From: Chloroflexota bacterium | GTDB lineage: Bacteria > Chloroflexota > Dehalococcoidia > Lucifugimonadales > Lucifugimonadaceae | Direction: 5' to 3' | Length of the DNA stretch: 39,809 bases | Assembly (NCBI GenBank): GCA_018649665.1 | Contig: JABIHL010000011.1 | Span: forward strand, 1 to 39,809 | Shown here: positions 19,184-39,704 of the stretch, one piece after another | Position numbering within the stretch: position 1 is the first letter of the stretch | How the letters are laid out: each line of letters begins with the position of its first letter | The notes under the pieces: model-generated | What the model was told of the DNA's origin: nothing | What the model saw: only the letters and a program-made list of their open reading frames with translations | Database searches by the model: none | Position numbers and translations under genes: made by a program

Positions 19184-19912
19184 CTAAGCGATCATCTGCA
19201 ACGGTGACATAACGTCTGCAGAACGTTCTACGTCGCCTTCATGCATTGGAAGCTGACCGGTCGACTCTAGATACGTAAGGATAGCGAATACACGCCCGTG
19301 CCTCTCGCCGTTTGAGTTGAAACCAAGCTTCGCAAGCACGCTGCTGATGTGGTGTTCAACAGTTCGTGGCTGAATGAACAGTGCCTCAGCAATTGCTCGG
19401 TTTGAGTGAGCCTTTGCCATTAGTCCAAGAACCTGAAGCTCACGTGGGCTGAGATTCTTGAGTGCTCCGCTCAAGCGAACGCCTTCATCGGAAGTAAGCT
19501 TCGAGACCATTGCTGGGTCGAGAACTGTGCGTCCTGCGGTTACATCTTCGATAGATCGAACGATGTCACGTGTGTTACGCAGAGTTGACTTCAGTAAGAA
19601 AGCTTTTCCTGCGGAATCATCACGCATGAACTCTTTCAAGTACTCGCCACGATCGTGAGTTGAGAGCATGACTAGACCCGTTTTTGGGCTGTCTACTCGT
19701 AACTGACGTGCGACTTGTATACCGTTGATCATCGGTAGGCTGACATCAAGAATCGCTACAGATGGCTGCAGCGACTTTGCCATAGATATGGCACTACGAC
19801 CATCGGCTGCCACGCCGACGACGTCGATTCCCGGCTCTCGGTCGAGAAGAAGTGCAAGACTTTCACGAGTCAGTTCGTGATCGTCTGCTATTAGAACAGA
19901 TATTGTTTGCAT
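19184..19912 (-). CDS. NarL/FixJ-type response regulator at the upstream edge of the archaellum locus
   Basis: Two-component response regulator of 242 residues. The receiver domain (1-125) has the acidic pair in IADDHE, phosphoacceptor Asp56 in VAILDVSLP and a Lys in FLLKSTL. The C-terminal LuxR-type helix-turn-helix (about 155-215: LSPRELQVLGLMA, NRAIAEALFIQPRTVEHHISSVLAKLGF) is intact, so it should bind DNA. It is divergent from the first archaellin gene across a 440-base gap. Its receiver carries the same extended linker before the Lys (FMRDDSAGKAFLLK) as the regulator at 34929, and both end in a matching tail (ILTYLEST/LLYLQET), so the two are paralogs at opposite ends of the locus. Control of archaellin transcription is inferred from position. 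Confidence 0.92.
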   Translation of the reverse strand: MQTISVLIADDHELTRESLALLLDREPGIDVVGVAADGRSAISMAKSLQPSVAILDVSLPMINGIQVARQLRVDSPKTGLVMLSTHDRGEYLKEFMRDDSAGKAFLLKSTLRNTRDIVRSIEDVTAGRTVLDPAMVSKLTSDEGVRLSGALKNLSPRELQVLGLMAKAHSNRAIAEALFIQPRTVEHHISSVLAKLGFNSNGERHGRVFAILTYLESTGQLPMHEGDVERSADVMSPLQMIA

Positions 19913-20352
19913 TCGAATTTCCCCTGTATACGATCAAGAATCTGACGGGATTACTTGAATCGTTTGCCCCCGTTACGTATAGGTACGGGCTTAAGGCGCA
20001 ATACTGATGCCGGGTATTGCTAGCCGTTTCCTACCGAACGTATCCCCTAATACTCTCCGCCAATAGTTCATGTGTCGTTAGCGCAACCCACGCGTCATGC
20101 TAGGTGGCAATACATGAGTGCGTTCACACACCCCGTTCGTACCCCGCACCCTGCACCCCATGTGGGTAAGTACACCGGGGTTCTTGGTGCGATCCCAATT
20201 CCCCACACCCGACTGTCTGAATACTGTTGATTAGTAGATAAAACGGACGGTCAGGTCGAGTACGCGCCCTCGTGCGCACGCTCCTTCTAATCCTCTTACT
20301 CCACGTGTGTGGTGAATCGGGGAATGACCAGAGCTTGAGGAGCATCCGAGAG
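19913..20352. promoter_or_regulatory. Long divergent regulatory region before archaellin 1
   Basis: This 440-base gap holds no convincing gene. It contains an imperfect palindrome (CCCGT to ACGGG, about 19968-19988) with an ACGTATAGGTAC centre, and related CGTATA/GTATACG words nearby, possible regulator sites. C-rich sequence at 20130-20210 includes TGTGGGTAAGTACACCGGGG (from 20161), which weakly resembles the 31-bp element before archaellins 3-5. GGAG at 20339-20342 is the ribosome site for ATG 20353. No promoter is assigned with confidence. Confidence 0.5.
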
Positions 20353-21087
20353 ATGATCACGAAACAGCTGGATACAAAAGAACCCCAGCAGCAGCGCGGT
20401 ATTACTGGATTAGAGACTGCGATTATTTTGATCGCATTCGTCGTAGTAGCGTCAGTGTTCTCATTTACGGTTTTGTCGACAGGTGTCTTCGCTTCAGAGC
20501 GATCAAAAGAAACTGTCTACGCAGTCCTTGAAGAAGCCAAGAGTTCGCTCAACCCAAGCGGCAGCATCATCGCCTTTAAAGGACGCGCTGGAACCTCGAC
20601 GGACGAAGACTCCATTTACAAAATTCAGTTCGTACTATCAAACGCCATTGCCGGCGAGCCAGTCGACATGACTCCTCCATACACAGTTGATGCGACGAAC
20701 ACCGATCCTGATATCTCTTCAGGTTCGGAATACAAGACCGTGATCTCCTACCAGGATAAAAATCAGTATATTTCCGATGTTCCCTGGTCTATCAAAATGC
20801 TTGGTCAGTCATCAAACGACTTCCTAGTGGAACAGGGCGAAAAAGCTGAAATCACTGTGTGGATCTTGCAGCGACTCAATGGTGTTGCGGATCCTCTCTC
20901 GAACAATGGCGTGTCCACATACAATTCAACCGATTCCAATGGGAGCAGCGGAATATTGACCACGGGCGGGACCCTGCTCAATGCAAACGACCAGTTCACC
21001 CTGGAAGTGAAGCCTGAAAGCGGTTCGACTATTGCCATTCAGCGAACAACACCAGCACGTCTCGACACAATTATGGATCTGAAATAA
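20353..21087 (+). CDS. arlB: Archaellin 1 (archaeal-type flagellin)
   Basis: Structural subunit of an archaellum filament, 244 residues. A short basic/polar leader (MITKQLDTKEPQQQRG) is followed by ITGLETAIILIAFVVVASVF, the class III signal-peptide arrangement in which an archaeal prepilin peptidase cuts after Gly and the hydrophobic helix packs into the filament core. The rest is a beta-rich outer domain. The upstream frame extends to 20272, but ATG 20353 has GGAG ten bases before it and gives a leader of normal size. It is the most divergent of five tandem archaellins (SVFSFTVLSTGVFASERSKETVYAV) and carries its own terminator. A minor or basal subunit role is possible but unproven. Confidence 0.93.
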   Translation: MITKQLDTKEPQQQRGITGLETAIILIAFVVVASVFSFTVLSTGVFASERSKETVYAVLEEAKSSLNPSGSIIAFKGRAGTSTDEDSIYKIQFVLSNAIAGEPVDMTPPYTVDATNTDPDISSGSEYKTVISYQDKNQYISDVPWSIKMLGQSSNDFLVEQGEKAEITVWILQRLNGVADPLSNNGVSTYNSTDSNGSSGILTTGGTLLNANDQFTLEVKPESGSTIAIQRTTPARLDTIMDLK

Positions 21088-21113
21088 CTTTCAAATCATC
21101 CAATCATAGTAGA

Positions 21114-21143
21114 AACGACCAGCGGAAATTCGCTGGTCGTTTT
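21114..21143 (+). terminator. Intrinsic terminator after archaellin 1
   Basis: AACGACCAGCG pairs with CGCTGGTCGTT around a six-base loop and runs into TTTT. It lies 27 bases after the stop codon and separates archaellin 1 from archaellin 2. Confidence 0.9.
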
Positions 21144-21309
21144 CGTTAAAGGTATTGGTGGCAGCACATTCAAGTTTGTGTGCCGACCCAACCGACTAAA
21201 TATTTCCCAATAACTAATGTTGAAATTAAGAGATACGTCATTGCGATTTGATCTAAGAAATCCATTTGGCGCAAAGAGAACTATTACGGGATTTGGGGAG
21301 GCTGCAGAA

Positions 21310-22020
21310 ATGTTGTTCAATAGAGAAACGAATGTCGGTGCACAAAAAGGGATTACCGGTCTTGAGACCGCGATTATCCTTATCGCATTCGTAGTAGTGG
21401 CTTCGGTATTCGCATTTACCGTATTGTCGACTGGAATATTCGCTTCCGAGCGATCGAAAGAAACCGTATTCACCGGATTGCAGGAAGCCAAAAGCTCAAT
21501 CGAGCCACGTGGTTCTGTGATCGCCTTCAAGGCAAATCGCGGTGGTACAGACACCATATTCAAAGTTTCGTGGGTTGTTTCTAATGCAGTCGCCGGTGAG
21601 CCGGTCGACCTGACACCGCCTTACACAGAGGGTGCAGACGGAACAGACCCAGACATCGTCACAGACGCAGAATACAAGACGGTGATTTCATACACCGACA
21701 TCAATCAGCACCTCAATGACGTCCCATGGACAGTATCTTGGGTTGGTAATAACAATGGTGACAATCTGCTCGAAGAAGGTGAAAAGGGCGAGATTACCGT
21801 CTGGCTTCTAGAGCGAACCACAACCGTGGGCATCACCGACGCCAGCGCAGCTGGGTTCTGGGTAGCAGACGCCAATGGTTCTCATGGAATGCTTGCAGGA
21901 GCCACGCTGATCAGCACGAACGACCAGTTTACTTTCGAGATGAAGCCAGAAAGCGGAGCTGTGTTGACGATGCAACGAACTGCACCTTCAAGGCTCGACA
22001 CCATCATGGACCTCAAGTAG
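21310..22020 (+). CDS. arlB: Archaellin 2
   Basis: Second archaellin, 236 residues. The leader MLFNRETNVGAQKG precedes ITGLETAIILIAFVVVASVF, so processing is expected after the K-G pair. The outer domain contains the family segments VVSNAVAGEPVDLTPPY, AEYKTVISYTD and DQFTFEMKPESGAVL, and the chain ends in RLDTIMDLK like all five copies. An upstream frame opens at 21217, but ATG 21310 has GGGGAG nine bases before it. Its leader region lacks the 31-bp element and the hairpin module seen before archaellins 3-5, so its expression is probably controlled differently. Confidence 0.94.
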   Translation: MLFNRETNVGAQKGITGLETAIILIAFVVVASVFAFTVLSTGIFASERSKETVFTGLQEAKSSIEPRGSVIAFKANRGGTDTIFKVSWVVSNAVAGEPVDLTPPYTEGADGTDPDIVTDAEYKTVISYTDINQHLNDVPWTVSWVGNNNGDNLLEEGEKGEITVWLLERTTTVGITDASAAGFWVADANGSHGMLAGATLISTNDQFTFEMKPESGAVLTMQRTAPSRLDTIMDLK

Positions 22021-22053
22021 GGCCAACCAGATCAACGTTCAATAGAACTTTCG

Positions 22054-22085
22054 AAACAGCCATCGGTTTTCCGATGGCTGTTTTT
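22054..22085 (+). terminator. Intrinsic terminator after archaellin 2
   Basis: CAGCCATCGG, a TTTT loop and CCGATGGCTG followed by TTTTT; flanking A's can pair with the T tract. The stem is identical to the one after archaellin 3. Confidence 0.95.
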
Positions 22086-22098
22086 GCTTAAAGCACCC

Positions 22099-22129
22099 TG
22101 TGGGCTACCCGCCCCCACACGTTGGAGTG
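22099..22129 (+). promoter_or_regulatory. 31-bp conserved element upstream of archaellin 3
   Basis: First of three copies of a 31-bp element placed just after the preceding archaellin's terminator. The shared pattern is TGTGGGCTACC, a C-rich middle and TTGGAGTG at the end; here GTGGG and CCCAC form an inverted repeat. It is likely an operator, promoter part or activator site for the next archaellin. No sigma-70 boxes are clear. Confidence 0.65.
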
Positions 22130-22229
22130 CACGCAATACCCCAACGAACTCTCTGGTCATAGCTTTATATACATAACTGCGATAACTGTCACTCGGTGCT
22201 AAGCCAGGGTCGAGATACAGATGCAGTGT

Positions 22230-22280
22230 TGAGGAAGACCAACTGGCTACCATCCCAATAATGAGGATGGATCTAGGAGA
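22230..22280 (+). promoter_or_regulatory. Structured 5' leader of archaellin 3
   Basis: TGAGGAAGACC (22230-22240) is followed after nine bases by a six-pair hairpin CCATCC/GGATGG (22250-22270) and after four bases by AGGAGA (22275-22280), six bases before the ATG. The same module precedes archaellins 4 and 5 with different stem bases but kept pairing. The block could also open a leader peptide (TTG AGG AAG ACC, stopping after ten codons). Confidence 0.65.
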
Positions 22281-22286
22281 TAGAAA

Positions 22287-23012
22287 ATGTTTACGCACAA
22301 CTTCGGTTCGCCGAAGAGCGAAAAGGGTATTACCGGTCTTGAGACCGCCATTATCCTTATCGCATTCGTGGTAGTCGCATCAGTTTTCGCATTCACGGTT
22401 CTCTCAACAGGTATCTTTGCCTCTGAGCGATCCAAAGAGACGGTTTTCTCCGGACTCGAAGAAGCGAAGAGCTCGATCGAACCACGTGGTTCTGTTATCG
22501 CTTACAAAGGCAACATCAGTGGATCAAACGACACGATCTACAAGGTTTCGTTTGTAGTTTCTAACGCAGTCGCCGGTGAGCCAGTTGACCTGACTCCTCC
22601 ATACACTGCTGGAGGCTCTGGTTCCGATCCAGACATCGTTGCAAGTGCTGAGTACAAGACGGTTGTTTCGTTCATCGATGGCAACCAGTACCTCAACGAT
22701 GTTCCATGGTCTGTTTCTTGGGTTGGTAACAGTAACTCGGACAGCCTACTCGAAGAGGGTGAAAAGGCCGAGATTTCAGTCTGGTTGCTCCGCCGTGACT
22801 TTGACACTCAGGCCACCGACCCTACCGCAACTGGTGGTGTAGCTTACTGGGCTGCTGCCGACGCGAACGGTTCACGTGGAATGCTTTCAACCGACACCTT
22901 CGTCGGCACGAACGACCAGTTCACTATCGAAATGAAGCCAGAGAGCGGAGCTGTGTTGACCATTCAGCGAACATCGCCTTCCAGGCTCGACACGATCATG
23001 GACCTCAAGTAG
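22287..23012 (+). CDS. arlB: Archaellin 3
   Basis: Third archaellin, 241 residues. The leader MFTHNFGSPKSEKG is followed by ITGLETAIILIAFVVVASVF, with expected cleavage after K-G. AGGAGA sits six bases before the ATG. The N-terminal coding region (about 22320-22490) is almost identical at base level to that of archaellin 4, while the outer domain differs (it has the segment RRDFDTQATDPTATGGVAYW), which suggests recent duplication or gene conversion of the core-forming part. It has its own upstream element, structured leader and terminator. Confidence 0.95.
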   Translation: MFTHNFGSPKSEKGITGLETAIILIAFVVVASVFAFTVLSTGIFASERSKETVFSGLEEAKSSIEPRGSVIAYKGNISGSNDTIYKVSFVVSNAVAGEPVDLTPPYTAGGSGSDPDIVASAEYKTVVSFIDGNQYLNDVPWSVSWVGNSNSDSLLEEGEKAEISVWLLRRDFDTQATDPTATGGVAYWAAADANGSRGMLSTDTFVGTNDQFTIEMKPESGAVLTIQRTSPSRLDTIMDLK

Positions 23013-23048
23013 TTCCTAATCGTCAAACGTTCAATAGAACAAACGAAT

Positions 23049-23075
23049 CAGCCATCGGTTTTCCGATGGCTGTTT
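23049..23075 (+). terminator. Intrinsic terminator after archaellin 3
   Basis: CAGCCATCGG, TTTT loop, CCGATGGCTG, then TTT. Same stem and loop as the terminator after archaellin 2, so it was copied with the gene unit. Confidence 0.92.
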
Positions 23076-23089
23076 CTATTAACCGAGTG

Positions 23090-23120
23090 TGTGGGCTACC
23101 CGCCCCCACGCATTGGAGTG
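23090..23120 (+). promoter_or_regulatory. 31-bp conserved element upstream of archaellin 4
   Basis: Second copy of the TGTGGGCTACC...TTGGAGTG element, at the same place relative to the upstream terminator. The central C-rich part keeps the GTGGG/CCCAC inverted repeat. Confidence 0.65.
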
Positions 23121-23221
23121 GTCTCAATTTCCCAGAACCACGACCGAGCATATCTTTGAATACATAGCCGTACCGATCAATGAGAAGCATCTGGTCAGAG
23201 CAACTCAAAGAGGTTACGGCA

Positions 23222-23269
23222 ATGAGGAAGACCATTCTGACCCCGCCGCAAATGGCGGATATTAGGAGA
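23222..23269 (+). promoter_or_regulatory. Structured 5' leader of archaellin 4
   Basis: TGAGGAAGACC (23223-23233), nine bases, then hairpin CCGCCG/TGGCGG (23243-23258, one G-U pair), five bases, then AGGAGA (23264-23269). The ATG at 23222, which has AAAGAGG upstream, would open a 36-codon overlapping frame (M-R-K-T-I-L...) that runs into the archaellin gene in another frame. Confidence 0.65.
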
Positions 23270-23276
23270 TACGTAA

Positions 23277-23990
23277 ATGTTTACGCACACCTTCGGCACG
23301 CCGAAGAACGAAAAGGGTATTACCGGTCTTGAGACCGCGATTATCCTTATCGCATTCGTGGTAGTCGCATCAGTTTTCGCATTCACGGTTCTCTCAACAG
23401 GTATCTTTGCCTCTGAGCGATCCAAAGAGACGGTTTTTGCCGGACTCGAAGAAGCGAAGAGCTCGATCGAACCACGTGGTTCGGTTATCGCATACAAGGG
23501 CCTTGTTGGATCCACCGAGACAATCTACAAAGTGGTATTTGTCGTATCTAACGCTGTCGCCGGTGAGCCTGTCGACCTGACAGCTCCTTACACTGCAGGC
23601 GGCTCTGGAACTGACCCAGATATCGTTTCAAACGCTGAGTACAAGACTGTTGTTTCGTACACAGACAAGAACCAATACCTTTCAGACGTACCTTGGTCGC
23701 TTGACTGGGTTGGTAACGCCAACTCCGACAGCCTTCTTGAAGAGGGTGAAAAGGCCGAGATCACTGTGTGGTTGCTCGAGCGAAACACCGGAACTGCGAT
23801 CGGGTCATCCGACAGTACTGGTGAATACGCTGCAGCAGATGTCAATGGTGCTTCTGGCATCCTTCAGGGTGGCACTCTAGTTGGGACAAACGACAAGTTC
23901 TCCCTCGAAATGAAGCCCGAAAGCGGCGCAGTACTGACAATTCAGCGAACTGCCCCTTCACGGCTCGACACGGTTATGGACCTCAAGTAG
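23277..23990 (+). CDS. arlB: Archaellin 4
   Basis: Fourth archaellin, 237 residues. The leader MFTHTFGTPKNEKG precedes ITGLETAIILIAFVVVASVF. The N-terminal third is near-identical to archaellin 3 and the outer domain is closer to archaellin 5 (DWVGNANSDSLLEEGEKAEITVWLLER). The variable loop (TGTAIGSSDSTGEYAAADVNG) is unique. AGGAGA lies seven bases before the ATG. Own element, leader and terminator, so it is an independent transcription unit. Confidence 0.95.
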   Translation: MFTHTFGTPKNEKGITGLETAIILIAFVVVASVFAFTVLSTGIFASERSKETVFAGLEEAKSSIEPRGSVIAYKGLVGSTETIYKVVFVVSNAVAGEPVDLTAPYTAGGSGTDPDIVSNAEYKTVVSYTDKNQYLSDVPWSLDWVGNANSDSLLEEGEKAEITVWLLERNTGTAIGSSDSTGEYAAADVNGASGILQGGTLVGTNDKFSLEMKPESGAVLTIQRTAPSRLDTVMDLK

Positions 23991-24013
23991 TTCCTAACTA
24001 AATAGAACTTTTG

Positions 24014-24044
24014 AAACAGCCACCGGTAACACGGTGGCTGTTTT
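24014..24044 (+). terminator. Intrinsic terminator after archaellin 4
   Basis: CAGCCACCG pairs with CGGTGGCTG around a six-base loop and is followed by TTTT. The outer CAGCCA/TGGCTG pairs match the terminators of copies 2 and 3, while the upper stem has changed from ATCGG/CCGAT to ACCG/CGGT with pairing kept. Confidence 0.93.
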
Positions 24045-24057
24045 CGTGTGGGTCGTA

Positions 24058-24088
24058 TGTGGGCTACCACACCCCCCGTGTTGGAGTG
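24058..24088 (+). promoter_or_regulatory. 31-bp conserved element upstream of archaellin 5
   Basis: Third copy: TGTGGGCTACC, then ACACCCCCCGTG in the middle and TTGGAGTG at the end. The ends are invariant across the three copies and the middle varies, as expected for a bipartite protein-binding site. Confidence 0.65.
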
Positions 24089-24187
24089 CCCCTGATGTTG
24101 TAATCCACTGTTTCCCACTAATTTAGAAGCATCGCTGAATTAACTGGACGAGTAACACGGTTGGCAACTCGACACCAGGACAGCAAA

Positions 24188-24232
24188 TGAGGATGACCTG
24201 CTGACCTCGCCTATCCGGCGACAACTAGGAGA
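24188..24232 (+). promoter_or_regulatory. Structured 5' leader of archaellin 5
   Basis: TGAGGATGACC (24188-24198), eight bases, then hairpin TCGCC/GGCGA (24207-24221, five-base loop), five bases, then AGGAGA (24227-24232). The ATG at 24187 preceded by AGGA would open a five-codon peptide M-R-M-T-C. Confidence 0.65.
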
Positions 24233-24241
24233 CCGGAAAAA

Positions 24242-24955
24242 ATGTTTACGCACAAATACGACGCACCTAAGAATGAAAAAGGTATTACCGGTCTTGAGAC
24301 CGCAATTATCCTTATTGCATTCGTGGTAGTCGCCTCAGTGTTTGCTTTCACAGTCCTTTCAACAGGTATCTTCGCTTCAGAGCGATCCAAAGAAACTGTT
24401 TTCTCAGGACTTGAAGAAGCCAAGAGCTCGATCGAGCCACGCGGTTCGATCATCGCCTACAAGGGCCGAGTCGACACCACAAGCGCAACCGACGCCATCT
24501 ACAAAGTTGTATTTGTAGTATCGAACGCTGTTGCGGGTGAGCCAGTTGACCTGACTCCCCCATACGACATCGATGGATCTGGTACAGACCCGGACATCGT
24601 ATCTGGTGCTGAGTACAAGACAGTCGTCTCGTATACAGACTCAAACCAGTACCGTCCTGATGTTCCATGGACTATCGACTGGGTAGGTAACGCCAACTCC
24701 GACTCGCTGTTGGAAGAAGGCGAAAAAGCTGAAATCACAGTCTGGCTGCTCGAACGAGCCACCGGTGTTTCCGCTGCAACCAGCTCTAACGGAGTTGGTG
24801 GTTGGGACGGCACGGTAGGTGGAATTCTCGAGGGCGGCACATTACTTGGAACGAACGACAAGTTCACCCTCGAAATGAAGCCCGAGAGTGGTGCGGTGCT
24901 AACTATTCAGCGCACAGCTCCATCTAGGCTCGACACAGTTATGGACCTCAAGTAA
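24242..24955 (+). CDS. arlB: Archaellin 5
   Basis: Fifth archaellin, 237 residues. The leader MFTHKYDAPKNEKG precedes ITGLETAIILIAFVVVASVF. Synonymous differences from copies 3 and 4 run through the N-terminal third, so it is an older copy than the 3/4 pair. The outer domain holds VVSNAVAGEPVDLTPPYDID, AEYKTVVSYTD and the common end RLDTVMDLK. AGGAGA is nine bases upstream. It is the last archaellin; instead of a normal T-tract terminator it is followed by a large nested hairpin and then the motor genes. Confidence 0.95.
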   Translation: MFTHKYDAPKNEKGITGLETAIILIAFVVVASVFAFTVLSTGIFASERSKETVFSGLEEAKSSIEPRGSIIAYKGRVDTTSATDAIYKVVFVVSNAVAGEPVDLTPPYDIDGSGTDPDIVSGAEYKTVVSYTDSNQYRPDVPWTIDWVGNANSDSLLEEGEKAEITVWLLERATGVSAATSSNGVGGWDGTVGGILEGGTLLGTNDKFTLEMKPESGAVLTIQRTAPSRLDTVMDLK

Positions 24956-24962
24956 AGGTCAT

Positions 24963-25022
24963 CCTCGTCTAAAAGCTCGCTCCTGATCGCCTAGTCGGTC
25001 AGGAGCGTAGCAGCAGACGAGG
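24963..25022 (+). other. Large nested hairpin between archaellin 5 and the arlC-like gene
   Basis: The outer stem CCTCGTCT/AGACGAGG (24963-24970 with 25015-25022) encloses a 12-pair inner stem starting CGCTCCTGATCG and returning CGGTCAGGAGCG (24978-25007, one G-U, loop CCTAGT). No T tract follows directly, so it is not a standard terminator. Two smaller hairpins follow (CCGATC/GATCGG near 25032-25045, and CGCAA/TTGCG after a T run) before ATG 25100. It may attenuate read-through or stabilise or process the mRNA. Confidence 0.6.
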
Positions 25023-25099
25023 CAACAGGCTCCGATCTTGATCGGGGCACATATTTTTTACGCAACTTTGTTGCGAATTACCCAAAGGACGCAAGAACC

Positions 25100-25231
25100 A
25101 TGGCCGACGACATCGACTTGGAACAGCGTCTTAAGAATCTGGAAGAAGAGATCCGACTCCTAAAAGAGTCGGTATTCCCGTTGATTGCGGACATCCGCGC
25201 AAGGGTTCTTTCACCAGGGGATGAGTTTTAG
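25100..25231 (+). CDS. Minimal ArlC-like coiled-coil protein (43 aa)
   Basis: Short ORF reading MADDIDLEQRLKNLEEEIRL and continuing with LLKESVFPLIADIRARVLSPGDEF. It is a predicted coiled coil with heptad Leu/Ile and ends in DIRARVLSPGDEF, which resembles the end of the coiled-coil segment of archaeal ArlC/ArlD (DIR...L..P..F). The next gene begins two bases after its stop and carries a similar coil (LDIREHILDATNPFN). Archaeal arl operons often have arlC just after the archaellins, so position and sequence agree. GGACGCAAGAA before the ATG is a weak ribosome site. It would be far smaller than archaeal ArlC. Confidence 0.6.
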   Translation: MADDIDLEQRLKNLEEEIRLLKESVFPLIADIRARVLSPGDEF

Positions 25232-25233
25232 CT

Positions 25234-26184
25234 TTGGCTGCCGAAGACGCTCGAATGAAAGCCGGTCTTAAGACCGCAGAGGACGAGCTTAACCTCATCA
25301 AGAACCAGGTCCAGCAAACGCTGCTCGATATTCGCGAGCATATTTTGGATGCGACCAATCCGTTCAACGCTATCGATGACGCGCTTACCGATGAAGACGA
25401 GATCGAATTCGGTGACGACCTCATGGGTGGCGGTGCCGGAGCTGCTGGAGCTGCTGGCGCCGATGGCGGCACCGATGGTGAAGCCGATGGTTCGGACAGT
25501 GAAGATCTCGACGATATCGACAACCTCCCAGATGAGGATGACGATGACGAGGGAGAAGAGCTGTACGAAGAAGACGCTGATGGCGGCGAAGGCGATATTG
25601 TCGAAGAGTACCCAGATGATGGCTACGGCGACGAAATTATCGACGACGGCATGGGCGGCGGCGGCGGAATGTCTTCAGGAGCGGGCGGTGTTAGCGAAGA
25701 AATTTTCGAAGAAGAAGTGGATGTGCCTGATGAGGACGAAGGATTCGAACTCGATGAAGAGCCGTCAGACGACGAGATGGAATCAGATGAAGAATCGGAT
25801 GCTCAGGCTTCGGCAGATGGAGCAGCCACTGGAGCAAATAGAGCTACCGCACCGTTAATGGCAGATTTCGACGTACTCACTATGGCAGGACTCGTTCGTT
25901 GGGTAGCTGTCACTACTGAGCGGCTCGGGCCTAATCGCACTGAAATTCTTCTCGACGCATTCGAATCTGCAGGGCGAATAGCACCTGCAACCCGAATGGT
26001 ATTACATCACCTAATGGCGCTTTCAGAAGAAGATCCAAGCGAGAACGTTCCTGTACGAGAAATCGTCTCAGCAATGGTCAGAATGGAAGGCGTACTCGAT
26101 ACCAATACTGGTTCTGAGAGTAGCCGACTATTGAGCATGCTTATGGACGTCGATGACGATCCACTAGATCGCATGATGGCGTAA
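25234..26184 (+). CDS. arlD: ArlD/E domain protein with a very acidic linker
   Basis: Cytoplasmic component of the archaellum switch/motor base, 316 residues. The N-terminal coil (1-45) ends in DIREHILDATNPFN. Residues about 50-195 are a low-complexity Asp/Glu/Gly-rich linker. The C-terminal domain (about 205-265: LTMAGLVRWVAVTTERLGPNRTEILLDAFESAGRIAP) matches the FlaD/E domain that in Euryarchaeota links chemotaxis input (via CheF) to the motor. The start is TTG, two bases after the upstream stop; ATG 25255 is an alternative. A strong terminator follows. The acidic linker recalls haloarchaeal homologs, which may hint at the donor. Confidence 0.87.
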   Translation: MAAEDARMKAGLKTAEDELNLIKNQVQQTLLDIREHILDATNPFNAIDDALTDEDEIEFGDDLMGGGAGAAGAAGADGGTDGEADGSDSEDLDDIDNLPDEDDDDEGEELYEEDADGGEGDIVEEYPDDGYGDEIIDDGMGGGGGMSSGAGGVSEEIFEEEVDVPDEDEGFELDEEPSDDEMESDEESDAQASADGAATGANRATAPLMADFDVLTMAGLVRWVAVTTERLGPNRTEILLDAFESAGRIAPATRMVLHHLMALSEEDPSENVPVREIVSAMVRMEGVLDTNTGSESSRLLSMLMDVDDDPLDRMMA

Positions 26185-26202
26185 ACGTTTACCACGTCAA
26201 CA

Positions 26203-26238
26203 ATGAAGGCAGTCGTACTCGGCTGCCTTCATGTTTTT
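26203..26238 (+). terminator. Intrinsic terminator after arlD
   Basis: ATGAAGGCAG pairs with CTGCCTTCAT around a ten-base loop, followed by GTTTTT. It separates the arlC/arlD unit from the downstream arl genes. Confidence 0.92.
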
Positions 26239-26432
26239 AAGCCGCATTTCTCGTTGAAACCTTCTCGGCAAAACAGCATCCCCCACCTAACGCACAACTT
26301 ATTCGTACATGGATATTCGAGTCGTATTACATCATTGTTTACAGATTGAATTGGACTGGAATTCCCGACCCGATTCGAACACGTGGAATCAAAGGCTAAT
26401 CCCCTCCACATACATCTCTAGGAGAGATCGTC

Positions 26433-26966
26433 ATCGATAAAGCAATTACAACTATGCTTCTCACCATCGCCGGTGTTATCGCAGCAGTTGCCGTGATGAA
26501 CGCGGTTTACCCCGCAGTAACACGAAGTTCTAGTGCAGTCGCATCTGCATCGAGCACAGTCGATGAGCGAATCCGAACCAACATCTCTGTTGTTCAATCA
26601 GTTGGAGAGCTCGACTCCTCAAGCGCTTGGGTCGATACGAACGCCAACTCACTGTTCGATTTCTACGTATGGAGCAAGAACGTCGGCGACATTCGTATCC
26701 CGGCGATCAATGAAGTCGATATTTTCTTCGGCCAGCCTGGCGGAATCGTAAGAGTTCCGCACGAAGATGACGCCGGCGGCACCTACCCACAGTGGTCATA
26801 CACGCTCGAAGGCGGAGCCACTGAATGGGGCATCGCTTCGACAGTCAAGTTCGATATCAAGTTCGACGATGGCTGCCCAGGTTCATGTATTCAATCAACT
26901 GGTACGTACTTCATCAGAGTAATCACGCCTAATGGTGTAGCAGCCGAAAGTTACTTCTCTATGTAG
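26433..26966 (+). CDS. ArlG/ArlF-like archaellum stator protein (ArlG-like favoured)
   Basis: Membrane-anchored protein with one N-terminal helix and a beta-sandwich, about 177 residues. The helix (LLTIAGVIAAVAVMNAVYPAV) and following S..VASASSTVDERIRTNISVVQS resemble archaeal ArlG, whose complex with ArlF is the proposed stator anchoring the motor to the envelope. The first standard start, ATG 26454, lies 28 bases after AGGAGA (26420-26425). In frame and at the right spacing from that site is ATC at 26433, giving I-D-K-A-I-T-T-M. Either ATC is a rare start codon, the site is a sequence error, or ATG 26454 is used. Assignment to G rather than F is tentative. Confidence 0.72.
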   Translation: MDKAITTMLLTIAGVIAAVAVMNAVYPAVTRSSSAVASASSTVDERIRTNISVVQSVGELDSSSAWVDTNANSLFDFYVWSKNVGDIRIPAINEVDIFFGQPGGIVRVPHEDDAGGTYPQWSYTLEGGATEWGIASTVKFDIKFDDGCPGSCIQSTGTYFIRVITPNGVAAESYFSM

Positions 26967-26996
26967 TTGGAATCTCCAACACACGGGTGATCCGTC

Positions 26997-27179
26997 ATGG
27001 CCAAAGCAGCAGTATCGATAACAACGTTAATTTTGATAGCCATCGTCATGGTTTCAATACTCACGGCTTTACCCGATTCGCTAAATGGCGGCGGGCAACC
27101 GATACAGATTGCTTATTCATCCGATCCGGCAAATGCCTCGCCTAGCGAGTACGCCAAATCGATTCTTTCCAGTCGCTAA
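26997..27179 (+). CDS. Small single-helix membrane protein between the two ArlF/G-like genes
   Basis: A 60-residue protein with one hydrophobic helix (VSITTLILIAIVMVSILTALP) and a short polar tail rich in Ser, Asn and Pro. It starts at ATG 26997 with a GGGTGATCC stretch upstream and lies 30 bases after one arlF/G-like gene and 64 bases before the next, all on one strand. I do not recognise it. Its helix resembles the archaellin/ArlF N-terminal helix, but there is no K/R-G cleavage site and no beta domain. It could be a motor accessory or the remnant of an ArlF/G-like gene. Confidence 0.6.
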   Translation: MAKAAVSITTLILIAIVMVSILTALPDSLNGGGQPIQIAYSSDPANASPSEYAKSILSSR

Positions 27180-27243
27180 TTCACTTCGATGACACCGAAA
27201 CTAAATCCACATATTTCCTCGGGACTCAAGACAGCGGTGAAGC

Positions 27244-27774
27244 ATGTCTAGTCTGATTGTGGCGCTCTTCGCGGTGATGATTATCCTGGCCGCTATGGCT
27301 GGCTACGCAACAAGCTCCGTCCAGTCGCAGGACCAAATCAACCGGAGTGTGAAAGTTACTCGCGACACAGCGGGTGATATTTCTCGCACAAAAGTGGCGT
27401 CGCTCGGAGCGACAGTTACGACTAATACAAGGCTCGATTTCACAGTTCAAAACAGTGGTCAATCCCAGTTCAGACAAGTCAGTAATTGGGATGTTGTTGT
27501 GTGGTACCACGGGGCTACCGGGAACGGTCTAGAAATCGAACGGCTCACATATACGACCTCCGCGACTCCTTCGGCCGGGGAGTGGACACTCACAGGGATT
27601 TACGAGGACGCCGGTTCCTCGACCCCGGAGGTTTACCAGCCCGGAATCGTCAATCCTAGTGAAGAATTCATAATACGAGCTGAACTGGGACCTGCAGTCG
27701 CAACCAGTTCGAGTAACACGGTGACCCTAGCAGTAGAGCAAGGGGTATCGATCACCGAGGTATTTACCAACTAG
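27244..27774 (+). CDS. ArlF/ArlG-like archaellum stator protein (ArlF-like favoured)
   Basis: A 176-residue protein with an N-terminal helix (LIVALFAVMIILAAMAGYATSSV) followed by a polar segment (QSQDQINRSVKVTRDTAGDISRTKV) and a beta-rich domain (TRLDFTVQNSGQSQFRQVSNWDVVVWYHG). The 'thresholded' pattern of helix, short stalk and N-terminal beta-sandwich with TVQNSG is like archaeal ArlF, which binds the S-layer and caps ArlG. If so, F and G are in reverse order relative to many euryarchaeal operons. GGTGAAGC just before the ATG is a weak ribosome site. The next gene is arlH, 44 bases on. Confidence 0.72.
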   Translation: MSSLIVALFAVMIILAAMAGYATSSVQSQDQINRSVKVTRDTAGDISRTKVASLGATVTTNTRLDFTVQNSGQSQFRQVSNWDVVVWYHGATGNGLEIERLTYTTSATPSAGEWTLTGIYEDAGSSTPEVYQPGIVNPSEEFIIRAELGPAVATSSSNTVTLAVEQGVSITEVFTN

Positions 27775-27818
27775 CGGTGGGCAGTAAAACGCCCGCTAAG
27801 TAAGACGCAGCCAAAACC

Positions 27819-28526
27819 ATGGCAAACGAAGAAGGTATCGCAAGCGTATCCACGGGTCAGCCCGATTTGGATAAGAAAATGGGTGGAGGAATTCCACTCG
27901 GTTCTCTCACGCTGCTCGAAGGACAATCTGACTCCGGAAAATCAGTTGTTTCACAGCAGCTCATTTGGGGTTCGCTTCAATCTGGTCTTACAGTCACGCT
28001 GTTCACTACCGAGAACACAACTAAGAGTTTCCTGCGCCAAATGAGCAGCTTGAACCTCGAAGTAATGGAGTTCTTGCTGCTAGGGCGCCTAAAGATCTAT
28101 CCGATCTCAGCCGGTAAACGAAAGCTCACAGCTAAGCAGGTATTCGACACCATGCTTCGCAACATCACCAATGGTCCGCGTGTCGACTTAATCGTTGTCG
28201 ATTCACTCACGACGTTCGTAACACGGGGTTCGTGGGAAGACACCGCAGCCTATTTCGAAGAGTGCCAGATACTCGTCGGAGAAGCTCGAACCATCATCAA
28301 CGTCGCATCCACCTACGCATTTGATGACACCACCCTAGCGAGGCTCCGTTCGATGTGTGACGCCCATTTGACTTTACGAACAGAGGAAGTCGGAGAGCAA
28401 CTCGTGAAAATTCTCGAGGTGGCGAAAATCCGTGGTGCTACCAAGAGCACAGGAAACATCGTCACGTTCGACATCGAGCCAGATCTTGGCATGAAAATCA
28501 TCCCGATCTCCAAGGCATCGGCGTAG
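27819..28526 (+). CDS. arlH: ArlH, RecA/KaiC-like regulatory ATPase of the archaellum motor
   Basis: RecA-superfamily protein of 235 residues. Walker A is GQSDSGKS (residues 35-42) and Walker B is DLIVVDS (123-129), inside a KaiC-like fold. In archaea ArlH forms a ring on ArlI and its nucleotide state and autophosphorylation control motor assembly. The length matches archaeal ArlH. No strong Shine-Dalgarno precedes ATG 27819. The arlI start lies eight bases after its stop, so the two are likely translated together. Confidence 0.93.
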   Translation: MANEEGIASVSTGQPDLDKKMGGGIPLGSLTLLEGQSDSGKSVVSQQLIWGSLQSGLTVTLFTTENTTKSFLRQMSSLNLEVMEFLLLGRLKIYPISAGKRKLTAKQVFDTMLRNITNGPRVDLIVVDSLTTFVTRGSWEDTAAYFEECQILVGEARTIINVASTYAFDDTTLARLRSMCDAHLTLRTEEVGEQLVKILEVAKIRGATKSTGNIVTFDIEPDLGMKIIPISKASA

Positions 28527-28534
28527 GTATCTAA

Positions 28535-30463
28535 TTGGCAGTATTTGAACTTCCATTCAATGTGGTCGACGCAAGCGATCACGAGTGCGACAGAGAGTCA
28601 TGCGAAATTGTTCAGCAGCTCCCTACCGCACTGAAGGAAGCCGCTCTCGATTACTCATTCCTGCTGCGATACCTCCACACGTTGCCGATCGCTGAAATCG
28701 GGCTTCCGATCTATCACGAAGAGCTCGAAAAGAGTGATGGTGACGAAGAAGTTCCTAACTTCATATACAAAGCGAACTCCGGTGAAATTTTCTTCCACGT
28801 GTACCCCGACCCAGAGGGCATTCGTGACTGGTTGATCGCTATCGAACCGTCGGTAGAACACCCGAAATTCCCGCAGATAATGTCCGACATCGAAGAAGGC
28901 CTCATCGAGTACACCAATGAGCTTGAATCGGCCATTGGTGATCAGCAGCTTGCTGCAACGCTCAGGTGGACACTGGCTCACATCTTCAAACAGCCTGTCG
29001 AGATGAGTCTCGATGATATTCAGGCTCTTCCAAAAGGATTCCTCGGTGAAATTATCGAGGAAGAGGAAGAAGATGCTGCTTTGCCTGAAGGCGATTCTGA
29101 AGCTGAATCGGAACAGAACGGATCCACAGCTGTCGCAGTAGCTGAAAAAACCGAAAAGAAGTCCGACAAATCTGAAAGTAAATCCAGCTTGTTCGCACCG
29201 ATCGCCAAAATATTTGGTGGCGGTTCCAAGATGAACATAGATATTGCTAAGAAGTACGGATTAAATGACGACGACATCGAAGGAATCAAGTACTCGATGG
29301 TTCGTGAAAAAGTTGGAATGGGTGTACTTCAGCCACTAATCAACGACCACCACATTGAAGATATTTCTTGCAGTGGTGTTGGCCAAATTTTCATTGAGCA
29401 CAAAGTGTTCAGTTCAATGAAGTGTTCTTTCGGCTACCAGACACACCAAGAGCTTGATGAACACGTTCTGCGTATGTCGGAACGTATTAAAAAGCCGGTT
29501 ACGTTCCGCCAGCCCGTTGTCGACGCATCGCTACCCGATGGCTCACGTATCAACATCGTTTACGGTCAAGACGTTTCGCTCCGAGGAACGAACTACACAA
29601 TTCGTAAGTTCTCGGAAGAAGCTATCAGCATCATTCAGCTGTGCAAGTGGAAATCACTCAGTTGGGAGATGGCCGCATATCTCTCTATCACTATTGAAGA
29701 CGGCATGAACATGTTCGTCTCTGGCGAAACAGCTTCAGGCAAAACGACTCTGATGAACGCGCTTTGCACGTTTATCGAACCGAACGCCAAGATCGTGTCC
29801 ATTGAAGACACGGCTGAAGTGAACGTGCCTCACAAAAACTGGATCAAAGAAGTAACCAGAAAGCCAAAACCTGGTGAAACCGACTCCGGTGTTGGTATGT
29901 TCGACCTTCTCCGAGCTGCACTTCGTCAGCGTCCTGAATTCATCATCATTGGTGAGATTCGTGGTGAAGAAGGATTGATTGCATTCCAGGCTATGCAGAC
30001 TGGTCACCCAGTTATGGCAACCTTCCACGCAGCTTCCGTACAGAAGCTCATCCAACGTCTCGTTGGTGACCCGATTTTGGTTCCAAAGAACTATGTCGAC
30101 AACCTCAACCTTGCTGTAATTCAGGTTGCCGTAAGGCTTCCTGACGGCAAGATGGGTCGTCGTGCAATCGCAATAAACGAGATCGTGAACTACGACTCTG
30201 CTGCCGACGCATTCTCATTTGTAGAAGTGTTCCAGTGGGATCCAGTAACCGACACATTTGAATTCACAGGGTTCAATAACAGCTATTTGCTGGAGCAGGT
30301 AATTGCGCCAGCACGAGGTTATCCGCCTGCTCGAAGACGCCAGATTTACTCGCTAGTGAAGCGCAGAGCCAGAATTCTTGAGAAGCTCGCAGCTTCAGGC
30401 CTTGAGGAATACCAAGAGGTCTACCAGACGATTGCTAAAGCCATTAAAGACGGAGTGTTTTAA
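28535..30463 (+). CDS. arlI: ArlI, archaellum assembly and rotation ATPase
   Basis: Type II/IV secretion superfamily ATPase of 642 residues, the motor that assembles and rotates the archaellum. Walker A is GETASGKT (397-404), the Asp box lies in VSIEDTAEVN, Walker B is FIIIGEIRGEE (469-479) and the His box is GHPVMATFHA (490-499). The N-terminal domain (about 1-170) is joined to the core by an acidic then Lys/Ser-rich low-complexity linker (about 174-222), making it longer than the roughly 500-550 residues I expect for archaeal ArlI. Arginine-finger-like residues are in RQPVVDASLPDGSRIN. The start is TTG with TAGGT upstream. arlJ starts three bases after the stop. Confidence 0.95.
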   Translation: MAVFELPFNVVDASDHECDRESCEIVQQLPTALKEAALDYSFLLRYLHTLPIAEIGLPIYHEELEKSDGDEEVPNFIYKANSGEIFFHVYPDPEGIRDWLIAIEPSVEHPKFPQIMSDIEEGLIEYTNELESAIGDQQLAATLRWTLAHIFKQPVEMSLDDIQALPKGFLGEIIEEEEEDAALPEGDSEAESEQNGSTAVAVAEKTEKKSDKSESKSSLFAPIAKIFGGGSKMNIDIAKKYGLNDDDIEGIKYSMVREKVGMGVLQPLINDHHIEDISCSGVGQIFIEHKVFSSMKCSFGYQTHQELDEHVLRMSERIKKPVTFRQPVVDASLPDGSRINIVYGQDVSLRGTNYTIRKFSEEAISIIQLCKWKSLSWEMAAYLSITIEDGMNMFVSGETASGKTTLMNALCTFIEPNAKIVSIEDTAEVNVPHKNWIKEVTRKPKPGETDSGVGMFDLLRAALRQRPEFIIIGEIRGEEGLIAFQAMQTGHPVMATFHAASVQKLIQRLVGDPILVPKNYVDNLNLAVIQVAVRLPDGKMGRRAIAINEIVNYDSAADAFSFVEVFQWDPVTDTFEFTGFNNSYLLEQVIAPARGYPPARRRQIYSLVKRRARILEKLAASGLEEYQEVYQTIAKAIKDGVF

Positions 30464-30466
30464 GCC

Positions 30467-32038
30467 ATGGCACAAGGCATTCTGTCCCGTCTGGGTTTCA
30501 GTGATAAATCGAAGAAAGCTGCTGAAGAAGCAGCGCTTAGTGAGACGTTTCGACCTCCCGTCGATAAAAAGTCGCTCGCCTTCGATCTATTCACACACAT
30601 CTCGTACATGGCGTCTATGGCAACAGCCAAGGCATCACGTGACGTCATGTTCAAGTACGCGGCCACGCTGAACCTTTCTTCGACTGCGTACTTTATTGAT
30701 ATAAACACTCTCGTAAACAGGCTCAAGTACGACTACTCAGAAGCCTGTCGGGCCGTCGCTGATCGAACCGAAGATCACGACGTTTCGTCACTTCTACTTC
30801 GAATGTCAGGTTCGTTGTCCTCTGGTGAGGATGAAGAAGAGTTTCTGACTCGTGAAGCAGCTGTGATGGCAGAGCTTTACCGAGCCACCTACGAAACCAA
30901 CATCGAATCGCTTAGGAAATGGACTGATGCCTATTCAGCCATGATCGTTTCGGCTGGCCTTATCGTGGTTGTATCCATCATTTCGATGATGATCTGGAGC
31001 CTTGGTCCTGGAATGATCCTCATGACCGGTACTGTCACGATGACAGTTGCGATCATCGGTAGTTGGACGATCTACCTTGCAGCTCCCAAAGAGAGCTATA
31101 CGAGAACATCGGGCCTTAGCGCTCCGAACCAGCTAGTTGCCTTAAAGCTGTTCAAGTATTTAGTGCCGGCAGGCTTTGTTGTCGGTCTTGGTGCCGTAGT
31201 CATAAGCGGCGGACAACTTGGCTGGGCGATGATTATTTTGGGCATCAGCTTGCTGCCAGCTGGGGTCGTAATAAACCGAGATTCAAAACGGCTACTGAGA
31301 CTTGATGCCGACGTTGCTACCGCAACACGAATGCTCGGTGGTGTTACTGATGCTATTGGTACCACTGTGAGTGATGCGCTAAGTAAGGTCGATCGGCGAT
31401 CGCTCGGTTCGCTCGAACCCTATTTCCGACGACTCGAAGTACGAGTGCGATCTGGCATCACACCTGATCGCTGCTGGGATCACTTAATTAAGGAGTCTGG
31501 CTCAGAAATGATGGAACGTACCATCAACATTTTCTGGGACGCTCTTACGATCGGTGGTAACCCGCTGGTCACTGGCAAGACGGCTGCATTTTTCTCGGCA
31601 GAAATATCGATTCTTAGGGAAAAACGATCTCTGGTTTCGCAAACATTTGGCTACCTAACGGTTCCACTTCACGCTTCGATGGTCGGTCTTCTCATATTCA
31701 TTGTGAACGTGATGCAACTTTTCGCAGAAAGCATGTTGTCCGATACCGACGCAGTCGACCCAACCGCATCTGGAGCCGCCATTCCCGACATCGCTAGTTC
31801 AAGCGGATTTAACACGTTCGCAAACGTGAATTTCGAGTTCTTGAACATAATCATCACTATGGTAGTGGTAGTTTTTACCATCGCGAATGCAGTGGCACCA
31901 TGGGCAGCAAGTGGGGGACACCGCATGCGTGCCGGATACCAGTTAGGTGTGATGATGGTTGTATCAGGCGTTTGTATGACGATAATCCCTCCTATATCAA
32001 GAGCGATTTTCACCACGATATCCGCCCCGGCAACCTGA
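30467..32038 (+). CDS. arlJ: ArlJ, archaellum membrane platform protein
   Basis: Polytopic platform protein, 523 residues, homologous to TadB/TadC-type (T2SSF) proteins. It anchors the ArlI hexamer and carries the filament base. Cytosolic four-helix regions lie around 50-150 and 280-370, and hydrophobic helices are visible near 157-180, 185-205, 240-275, 400-420 and 450-520, as in archaeal ArlJ with about nine helices. Basic residues in the cytosolic loops (SYTRTSGLSAPNQ, NRDSKRLLRLD) could contact ArlI. It is directly followed, after 47 bases, by a small ORF and the kinase, with no terminator seen. Confidence 0.93.
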   Translation: MAQGILSRLGFSDKSKKAAEEAALSETFRPPVDKKSLAFDLFTHISYMASMATAKASRDVMFKYAATLNLSSTAYFIDINTLVNRLKYDYSEACRAVADRTEDHDVSSLLLRMSGSLSSGEDEEEFLTREAAVMAELYRATYETNIESLRKWTDAYSAMIVSAGLIVVVSIISMMIWSLGPGMILMTGTVTMTVAIIGSWTIYLAAPKESYTRTSGLSAPNQLVALKLFKYLVPAGFVVGLGAVVISGGQLGWAMIILGISLLPAGVVINRDSKRLLRLDADVATATRMLGGVTDAIGTTVSDALSKVDRRSLGSLEPYFRRLEVRVRSGITPDRCWDHLIKESGSEMMERTINIFWDALTIGGNPLVTGKTAAFFSAEISILREKRSLVSQTFGYLTVPLHASMVGLLIFIVNVMQLFAESMLSDTDAVDPTASGAAIPDIASSSGFNTFANVNFEFLNIIITMVVVVFTIANAVAPWAASGGHRMRAGYQLGVMMVVSGVCMTIIPPISRAIFTTISAPAT

Positions 32039-32085: not shown

Positions 32086-32286
32086 ATGGTCCCCCCGGGT
32101 ACCGATTCAGCAACAGATGAGAAAGAGGACGCCCTTGGCGATCTTGGCGACATCTTTGCTGAAGAAGAAAGCGAAGATTCCGAGAGACTTGCCGCCTTCG
32201 CCGATCTCGAGCAGCTAACCATGATCGAAGTAGCAGCCGAGACTGAATCTGTACTCGAAGAACTTAAGATAAGGCAGGGTGGCTAA
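32086..32286 (+). CDS. 66-aa acidic protein coupled to the histidine kinase
   Basis: Unrecognised small protein that begins MVPPGTDSATDEKEDALGDL and continues with an acidic amphipathic segment (DIFAEEESEDSERLAAFADL) and a helix ending in VLEELKIRQGG. It has no signal peptide or membrane segment. AAAGG lies just upstream. Its stop overlaps the kinase start as TAATG, so translation is coupled. Position between arlJ and the kinase suggests an adaptor between the sensor and the archaellum, or a kinase partner, but nothing in the sequence proves this. Confidence 0.75.
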   Translation: MVPPGTDSATDEKEDALGDLGDIFAEEESEDSERLAAFADLEQLTMIEVAAETESVLEELKIRQGG

Positions 32287-39556: not shown

Positions 39557-39603
39557 GCACTCGAAGCCCGCGACTGCTAACAGTCGGCAAGGTCGAGTGC
39601 TAA
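39557..39603 (+). promoter_or_regulatory. CIRCE-like inverted repeat before groES, with an enlarged spacer
   Basis: GGCACTCGA and TCGAGTGCTAA match the two arms of the HrcA operator CIRCE (TTAGCACTC/GAGTGCTAA). The right arm is perfect and the left has TGGCACTC. The spacer is about 30 bases instead of nine and contains its own hairpin CGACTG/CAGTCG (39571-39586). It lies about 100 bases upstream of groES, so HrcA-type heat-shock repression is plausible. Confidence 0.6.
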
Positions 39604-39704
39604 TCAAGAAATCGGTCTGAATTGAGACTGAATCGGTGTGTCCGCATCGTTCATCTGAGTTTGAAAATCCGAATTCTCGTCTACCACTAAGGAGAACCAT
39701 TTCA

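Follow-up and report, generated by a model that had tools for sequence, protein, structure and literature searches.

An arl2-type archaellum locus in a Lucifugimonas genome of the Chloroflexota: the small downstream gene orfX, flanking two-component regulators and repeated loss within the genus

How does a machine of archaeal type stand in a bacterial genome, and which genes besides the known archaellum set belong to it there? The question is raised by contig JABIHL010000011.1 of a Chloroflexota bacterium (assembly GCA_018649665.1), whose 39,809 nucleotides, analysed as a whole and called the window below, carry an archaellum (arl) locus at 20353–32038. We consider it very probable that the locus, which belongs to a marine SAR202 species within Ca. 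Lucifugimonas (Dehalococcoidia), encodes a rotary archaellum, inherited within the Chloroflexota and placed under bacterial two-component control. The first-pass annotation of this sequence had recognized a near-complete arl locus in archaeal order on one strand of a bacterial genome, which holds, and had supposed that the arrangement may be new, which does not: the archaellum locus of Lucifugimonas has been in the literature since 2023 (PMC10444878), and a paper of 2025 reported a swimming archaellated bacterium along with archaellum genes from 243 genomes of Chloroflexota (PMC12488501). Since Chloroflexota archaella are published for the genus Lucifugimonas and, in working form, for Litorilinea, the bacterial archaellum is a surprise already known, and its presence here alone adds one more genome. 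The passages of these papers at hand also report arl2-like order, euryarchaeal origin, arlF duplication and absence of CheF for the Chloroflexota, and scattered archaellins in Lucifugimonas (PMC12488501, PMC10444878). What goes beyond the published passages is orfX, a conserved gene beside the motor genes that is found in archaea and bacteria alike and is unnamed there, a larger unit in which bacterial regulators are fixed to the archaeal machine, and the repeated loss of this unit within the genus together with further genes.

The genes of the locus stand in the order B-CDE-G-F-H-I-J, which is the arl2 order, and all lie on the plus strand:

20353–21087, plus strand: arlB1, archaellin (PF01917, 2.2e-19)
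21310–22020, plus strand: arlB2, archaellin (PF01917, 6.8e-22)
22287–23012, plus strand: arlB3, archaellin (PF01917, 4.9e-21)
23277–23990, plus strand: arlB4, archaellin (PF01917, 2.5e-20)
24242–24955, plus strand: arlB5, archaellin (PF01917, 2.3e-21)
25100–25231, plus strand: arlC-like coil protein of 43 amino acids, found in five distinct Lucifugimonas genomes scanned, under purifying selection
25234–26184, plus strand: arlCDE, with N-terminal coil, acidic linker and C-terminal ArlD/E-like domain
26454–26966, plus strand: arlG (NCBIfam NF052591, 6e-7, below cut-off)
27244–27774, plus strand: arlF (PF22201, 0.0098, and PF01917, 0.0023, both below cut-off; placed by position)
27819–28526, plus strand: arlH (NF004723, 257 bits, over cut-off)
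28535–30463, plus strand: arlI, motor/assembly ATPase (NF058587, 618 bits, over cut-off)
30467–32038, plus strand: arlJ, platform (NF004703, 394 bits, E 7e-118, under the cut-off of 570)

All five archaellins, the first starting at 20353 as previously annotated, exceed the Pfam cut-off for PF01917 (E 2e-19 to 7e-22) and contain the class III motif GITGLE. The ArlC-like coil, also named in the first pass, has a ratio of non-synonymous to synonymous substitution rates (dN/dS) that stays under 0.5 in 10/10 pairs from the genus, nine of which lie under 0.25. No Pfam or NCBIfam match above cut-off was obtained for ArlCDE, the predicted ArlD/E-domain protein; a profile built from SAR202-family homologues only nevertheless matches archaeal open reading frames (ORFs) at the corresponding place upstream of arlG, arlF and arlH with 23–77 bits, and the switch protein appears on this evidence to be ArlCDE, of the euryarchaeal type, rather than ArlX. 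Family profiles of ArlF and ArlG likewise match ORFs at the corresponding place in many archaeal and bacterial loci, their own scores lying below the cut-offs. ArlH, which reaches 198 bits with NF052589, slightly under its cut-off of 215, keeps an intact Walker A motif (GQSDSGKS), as does ArlI (GETASGKT) together with its GEIRGEE motif; ArlH, ArlI and ArlJ had been rightly named. The draft genome holds a single match to the prepilin peptidase family PF01478 (contig C53), and the peptidase and all arl ORFs are open.

As contig 12, the window forms part of a draft bin of 2.65 Mb in 180 contigs with an estimated completeness of 86% and a contamination of 3.65%, features which might be taken to suggest a chimeric or contaminated contig. 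However, guanine-cytosine (GC) content runs at 0.48–0.54 along the window without a step at the arl locus, and the window proves collinear with the complete JH1073 chromosome of Ca. Lucifugimonas marina (CP046147.1, entered also as G012 and L034 and taken as one record; G and L numbers are our genome and locus labels, and genus and family denote computed kinship groups), where the same succession from an AMP-binding enzyme over the archaellum to an enolase-family gene is found. Identity to JH1073 amounts to 97% for ArlH, 90% for ArlJ and 59–97% for the flank proteins, MgtE was not found in the compared JH1073 stretch, and the arl gene order recurs in several congeners. Because of this collinearity and the even GC content, a chimera was rejected and can for practical purposes be disregarded, its probability being negligible; in GC content there is no break at the locus edges, where the first pass had proposed to look at coverage and tetranucleotide composition.

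A quick tree of ArlI and ArlJ was calculated from 70 rows, that is the window and 69 of the best 80 loci to which the scan for related loci extends, 11 being left out for missing or short genes. In it, the window is united with the 40 named Chloroflexota rows in a single group that has a Shimodaira–Hasegawa-like approximate likelihood ratio test (SH-aLRT) support of 100; the window adjoins JH1073 and L033, and the whole clade stands beside Methanophagales and other rows labelled Methanobacteriota by NCBI. Lacking a far outgroup and limited to the best 80 loci, this tree alone does not fix the donor, and it is a published tree that gives the direction from Euryarchaeota (PMC12488501). The euryarchaeal kinship proposed in the first pass agrees with this and with the profile matches in arl2 loci. 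With arlG before arlF and ArlI and ArlJ inside the Chloroflexota clade, the locus has the sequence characters of an arl2-type Chloroflexota archaellum, whose genes would descend from a euryarchaeal arl2 locus and would since have been passed down within the phylum. Among the described systems, Ca. L. marina (strains JH545 and JH1073) shares genus, gene order and flanks with the window and differs in having six archaellins in tandem instead of five and in retaining the first of two arlF copies, which the window lacks (PMC10444878). Litorilinea aerophila, a member of another class with PilN/PilO-like genes near its locus, has an arl2-like order as well and swims; the available text on it, with which we compared by description, names a CheY homologue and no unit of kinase and response regulators (PMC12488501, PMC13319060). 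In euryarchaea, the arl2 (fla2) loci of Archaeoglobi, Methanomicrobia and their relatives (PMC1914349) share the B-CDE-G-F-H-I-J order and, like the window, possess an orfX-like ORF directly 3' of arlJ. A presumed bacterial archaellum outside the Chloroflexota, L053 (QNDS01000161.1, filed as Ca. Fermentibacteria), was rejected: with a distance of about 0.06 changes per column to a Methanogasteraceae row in the ArlI and ArlJ tree, it is most likely a mis-binned archaeal contig.

By analogy with archaea, the roles of the proteins can be predicted with high confidence. ArlB1–5 and the archaellins encoded elsewhere in the genome would form the filament after cleavage by the single prepilin peptidase, ArlI and ArlJ with ArlH would assemble and rotate it, ArlG and ArlF would serve as stator, and ArlC and ArlCDE as switch platform. 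It could be argued instead that the product of the locus is a pilus of archaeal type which does not rotate and serves in adhesion or uptake, since SAR202 isolates have been described as non-motile with no archaella seen (PMC10444878) and a published tree puts two Chloroflexota members into the archaeal pilus clade (PMC12488501; our own ArlI and ArlJ tree holds no pilus rows). This reading is highly improbable, because ArlI scores 618 bits with the archaellum motor model, over its cut-off, and 179 bits with the bindosome ATPase model, because ArlH, ArlF, ArlG and ArlCDE, archaellum parts according to the literature, are all present, because chemoreceptors track the locus, and because the Litorilinea relative swims (PMC12488501).

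Directly behind the last gene of this predicted rotary archaellum lies orfX, which the first-pass annotation had not listed:

32086–32286, plus strand: orfX, unnamed acidic protein of 66 amino acids, directly 3' of arlJ, its stop overlapping the start of the kinase gene HK

A homologue follows arlJ in every family locus scanned. A first profile, made from 15 SAR202 sequences and run without regard to position against 31,385 ORFs in loci, produced 15 new matches at E ≤5, all of which adjoin the last arl gene; 14 begin at most 122 bp past it and that of L044 at 370 bp. With a profile of the C-terminal part only, eight of nine new matches occupied the expected place and one lay elsewhere (L072, E 0.64). 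Second profiles were derived from 38 bacterial and 22 archaeal C-termini, and loci were regarded as readable if at least 150 bp of downstream sequence was available (73/80). By these, 66 of the 73 readable loci, bacterial and archaeal, have orfX behind their last arl gene, a count that is partly circular since the C-termini in the profiles had been picked by eye and place; away from the expected place there was no match at E 0.01 among 22,394 ORFs. The seven loci in which it was missed are L047, L062, L077 (contig ends nearby), L087, L104, L111 and L112.

Could these proteins be unrelated acidic ORFs that resemble each other by composition? Their N-terminal parts are of low complexity and hardly alignable, one C-terminal match fell off-place as noted, and the comparison of the bacterial with the archaeal profile (P 5.6e-6) gives a probability of 86%, or 63% with realignment, and not 99%. 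At E 0.01, moreover, no more than four Chloroflexota loci are reached by the archaeal-only profile. Three of these, however, are Lucifugimonas proteins at E 0.003–0.004, with nothing off-place at E 0.01; the cross-domain score is 33.0, whereas 200 shuffles of the columns gave no more than 12.7 and the reversed profile gave 11.4; and the position-blind SAR202 search led to the end of the arl genes in 15 out of 15 cases. We therefore regard a chance likeness as quite unlikely, and on sequence comparison the bacterial and archaeal orfX proteins appear to share a C-terminal module. The archaeal counterparts are longer (133–459 amino acids) than the window protein and often have an N-terminal hydrophobic stretch. 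As they sit at the matching place, orfX probably came with the locus.

The gene is under purifying selection: in six congeners the proportions of non-synonymous and synonymous differences (pN and pS) are 0.02–0.20 and 0.22–0.83, and dN/dS is 0.05–0.18 in 11 of 15 pairs, the unsaturated ones. None of ten proteins tested has a match over a Pfam cut-off. The predicted structure, of modest confidence with a mean predicted local distance difference test score (pLDDT) of 68.5, consists of two helices (residues 21–39 and 46–63). No paper turned up in a text search on genes downstream of arlJ in archaellum clusters; in the available part of PMC1914349 the unnamed genes of the locus figure are annotated as hypothetical, so orfX may have been drawn there.

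As to function, orfX is, somewhat more probably than otherwise, an unnamed archaellum component in both domains. Made directly after ArlJ, it would probably reside on the cytoplasmic side of the motor, and chances are about even that it acts as a motor-side component or tether. A more elaborate proposal, which we put forward as a long shot, is that of a core protein older than the transfer from archaea to Chloroflexota, whose two-helix C-terminal module on an acidic tether would dock at ArlJ/ArlI or at ArlCDE and which, with the kinase and response regulator RR2 described below, would form a private signalling line to the motor in SAR202 bacteria, where no CheF was found. A simple replacement of CheF by orfX was considered and dropped, as archaeal groups that often have CheF (PMC4858521) also have orfX.

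The arl genes and orfX are framed by regulators of bacterial type:

19184–19912, minus strand: narLup, response regulator with receiver (REC) domain and LuxR-type helix-turn-helix (HTH) (PF00072, 5.5e-19; PF00196, 8.6e-15), divergent to the archaellins
32286–33947, plus strand: HK, hybrid histidine kinase PAS-HisKA-HATPase-REC by its domain matches, conserved and co-lost
34013–34693, plus strand: RR1, REC and LuxR-type HTH (PF00072, 6.5e-21; PF00196, 2.2e-15), HTH conserved
34929–35630, plus strand: RR2, REC (PF00072, 2.5e-16; no GerE match) and an HTH-like C-terminus without the usual recognition helix, from an alignment of 14 sequences

The succession HK-RR1-RR2 follows arlJ in all 14 family loci that were fetched with their right side (the window, nine genomes and four more; the ArlJ-bearing G023, G039 and G057 were not fetched that far), and it holds down to 43–48% ArlJ identity. 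Upstream, a divergent narLup is present in eight loci (window, L023, L027, L028, L029, L042, L122 and L131) and is 97% identical at the matching place in JH1073. Judged by this conservation, the archaellum locus is a larger unit, comprising a divergent NarL-type regulator upstream and a histidine kinase with two receiver proteins downstream; the first pass had seen bacterial-type regulation in such regulators and in terminators, both of which were found, and the regulators are here added as part of the unit. The words 'response regulator' and 'histidine kinase' are absent from the main texts of PMC12488501 and PMC10444878, the former also from the available part of PMC13319060, and a literature search combining archaella, response regulators and Chloroflexi yielded nothing pertinent, judged by titles.

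The hybrid kinase, the two receiver proteins and narLup would most likely switch archaellin gene expression. The LuxR-type HTH is conserved in RR1 and narLup, and it is likely that the kinase senses a signal via its PAS domain and acts through these two on the separately terminated archaellin genes. In RR2, by our reading of the residues, the recognition helix is not conserved among 14 sequences, three of which have a changed acidic pocket in the receiver too. This protein seems to lack the capacity for LuxR-like DNA binding and might, as we tentatively suggest, target partner proteins or serve as a phosphate sink. In the neighbouring genus represented by L025, L026 and L027, the acidic pocket of RR2 is lost and Glu replaces the phospho-Asp.

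The kinase and response regulators might be mere neighbours with no role in the archaellum, given that their link to it consists of position, conservation and co-loss and that any deletion taking the arl genes takes neighbours too. We hold this to be unlikely, for their order persists in 14/14 fetched loci across the identity range given, while the outer genes vary between genera, and relatives of RR1 (about 200 bits) occur near archaellum genes, at other locus positions, in four further Dehalococcoidia/Chloroflexi loci (L046, L049, L073 and L088).

How stable the unit is can be seen within the genus, where ArlJ was found in six of 19 genomes (partial at a contig end in G068) and in 13 of 61 in the family sample. 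In seven congeners the flanks meet in an unbroken stretch without the archaellum unit: the S9 peptidase is followed by RR2 from residue 129 in G032, and runs to residue 54 before RR2 from residue 163 in G022; the peptidase meets a cupin gene in G062, the enolase gene meets it in G061, G064 and G065, and a dehydrogenase gene does so in G066. A broken RR2 and a truncated narLup remain in G046, the sister of the window species with 94% identical flanks, and G040 retains a narLup remnant before its contig ends. Such remnants indicate loss rather than a state before gain. Not all 13 ArlJ-negative congeners can be counted as losses, a reading that was rejected: the search did not locate the site in G058, G063 and G069, and G052 keeps narLup and archaellins up to a contig end, so that incomplete assembly may account for its lack of ArlJ. 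A tree of the flanks with 16 rows, from which G070 and one outgroup row were left out for too little data, requires three changes, of which at least two are forced by its starred branches. On this comparison the archaellum unit appears to have been lost at least twice in the genus, leaving scars.

Loss of the unit goes along with that of probable helpers, namely the prepilin peptidase, the kinase unit and chemoreceptors. An HK orthologue exceeds 900 bits in 6/6 ArlJ-positive congeners and stays at or below 107 bits in 13/13 ArlJ-negative ones. A full prepilin peptidase match is present in all six of the former and, among the 13 latter, in G052 only; it is broken or partial in G046, G040 and G063 and missing in nine. 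Chemoreceptors over the cut-off were detected in three of five ArlJ-positive and none of nine ArlJ-negative genomes tested, one fragment below the cut-off occurring in G058. Kinase-like matches number 39–62 per genome in ArlJ-positive versus 2–30 in ArlJ-negative congeners; per Mb, histidine-kinase-like matches are 15.6–20.7 (G012 and congeners) versus 1.1–10.7. CheW-domain genes, compared in eight congeners, follow ArlJ less strictly: they are intact in G000 (the window genome), G012 and G040, in pieces in G046 and G058, and not found in G022, G032 and G052. Since the genomes are related, and hence not independent, and since genes can be missing from drafts, these counts describe a pattern and are no probability test.

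The sister G046, in which besides the remnants mentioned the peptidase has an internal stop and CheW lies in broken pieces, suggests a further possibility, that the locus of the window is real yet no longer working and represents an early stage of the same loss. The window indeed misses one arlF copy, and no chemoreceptor was found in its draft. We consider this a slim possibility: the arl ORFs are all open and so is that of the peptidase, comparison of orfX and arlC-like pairs points to purifying selection, chemoreceptors are present in G067, which shares the arlF loss, and the window genome is an 86% draft, absence from a draft being soft evidence.

Several observations weigh against a working rotary archaellum under two-component control. 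Cells of Ca. L. marina are described as non-motile, with no archaella seen (PMC10444878), and the window's own draft yields no chemoreceptor. ArlG and ArlF, the two ArlF/G-like proteins of the first pass, have weak and very weak scores respectively and are named from values below cut-off plus position, and of the two arlF copies of close relatives the first is missing. CheF (PF04283) was found in none of 22 family genomes, with positive controls in three archaea; its absence from Chloroflexota is also reported in PMC12488501, whereas many euryarchaeal arl2 carriers have it (PMC4858521). ArlJ-negative G040 keeps an intact CheW. The regulators, whose action upon the archaellum is putative, are tied to it by position, conservation and co-loss; the RR2 of one genus (L025–L027) is just 29–32% identical and named by position, L032 has no narLup in the 1.5 kb upstream of its first archaellin, and L042 has the kinase but, over the 1.6 kb before its contig stops, no match to RR1 or RR2. 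A looser general terminator scan gave 24 sites versus 17.0 (standard deviation 4.9) in shuffles, not clearly above chance. Through orfX, the regulators and the co-lost genes, the question posed in PMC12488501, how a signal reaches the motor without CheF, becomes tied to named, testable genes.

The separate termination of the archaellin genes is predicted from hairpins between them; these and two further minor features are:

19998–20020, no strand: inverted repeat GCAATAC-N9-GTATTGC, inside the conserved narLup–arlB1 gap
21115–21140, plus strand: terminator hairpin after arlB1, 10-bp perfect stem and T-rich tail
22055–22082, plus strand: terminator hairpin after arlB2, 12-bp perfect stem and T-rich tail
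23049–23072, plus strand: intrinsic terminator hairpin after arlB3
24016–24041, plus strand: intrinsic terminator hairpin after arlB4
26997–27179, plus strand: small ORF of 60 amino acids with a single transmembrane segment, intact in G067 and 55% identical in JH1073

Each of the four inter-archaellin gaps contains a perfect stem, 10 bp or longer, followed by a T-rich tail; no further hairpin of this strength occurs on the plus strand of the window, 500 shuffles of the gaps produced none, and JH1073 has such hairpins in four of its five gaps, the stems showing paired changes. A sigma-70 promoter scan was of no use, its 10 sites being fewer than the 15.1 in shuffles. The gap of 440 bp between narLup and arlB1 is strongly conserved across four genomes; its inverted repeat, the arms of which are not kept in all four, is a possible regulator site. 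Three further PF01917 genes over the cut-off, each a lone archaellin, lie on other contigs of the window genome (C18, C32 and C30), and scattered copies have been reported for JH545 as well (PMC10444878). The small ORF between arlG and arlF, also new to the annotation, was not found in two other congeners; its interpretation as a remnant of the missing arlF copy was rejected, as it is a separate small ORF. Several Dehalococcoidia loci (L067, L088, L103 and L107) contain two tandem arlI genes.

The flanks of the locus are bacterial, as had been stated, and encode MgtE, the S9 peptidase, enolase-superfamily, short-chain dehydrogenase/reductase (SDR) and AMP-binding enzymes and LuxR-type regulators. 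At the right end the window reaches the start of groES (39699–39809; PF00166, 5e-7), near which an element resembling the controlling inverted repeat of chaperone expression (CIRCE) is located at 39577–39603 with three mismatches.

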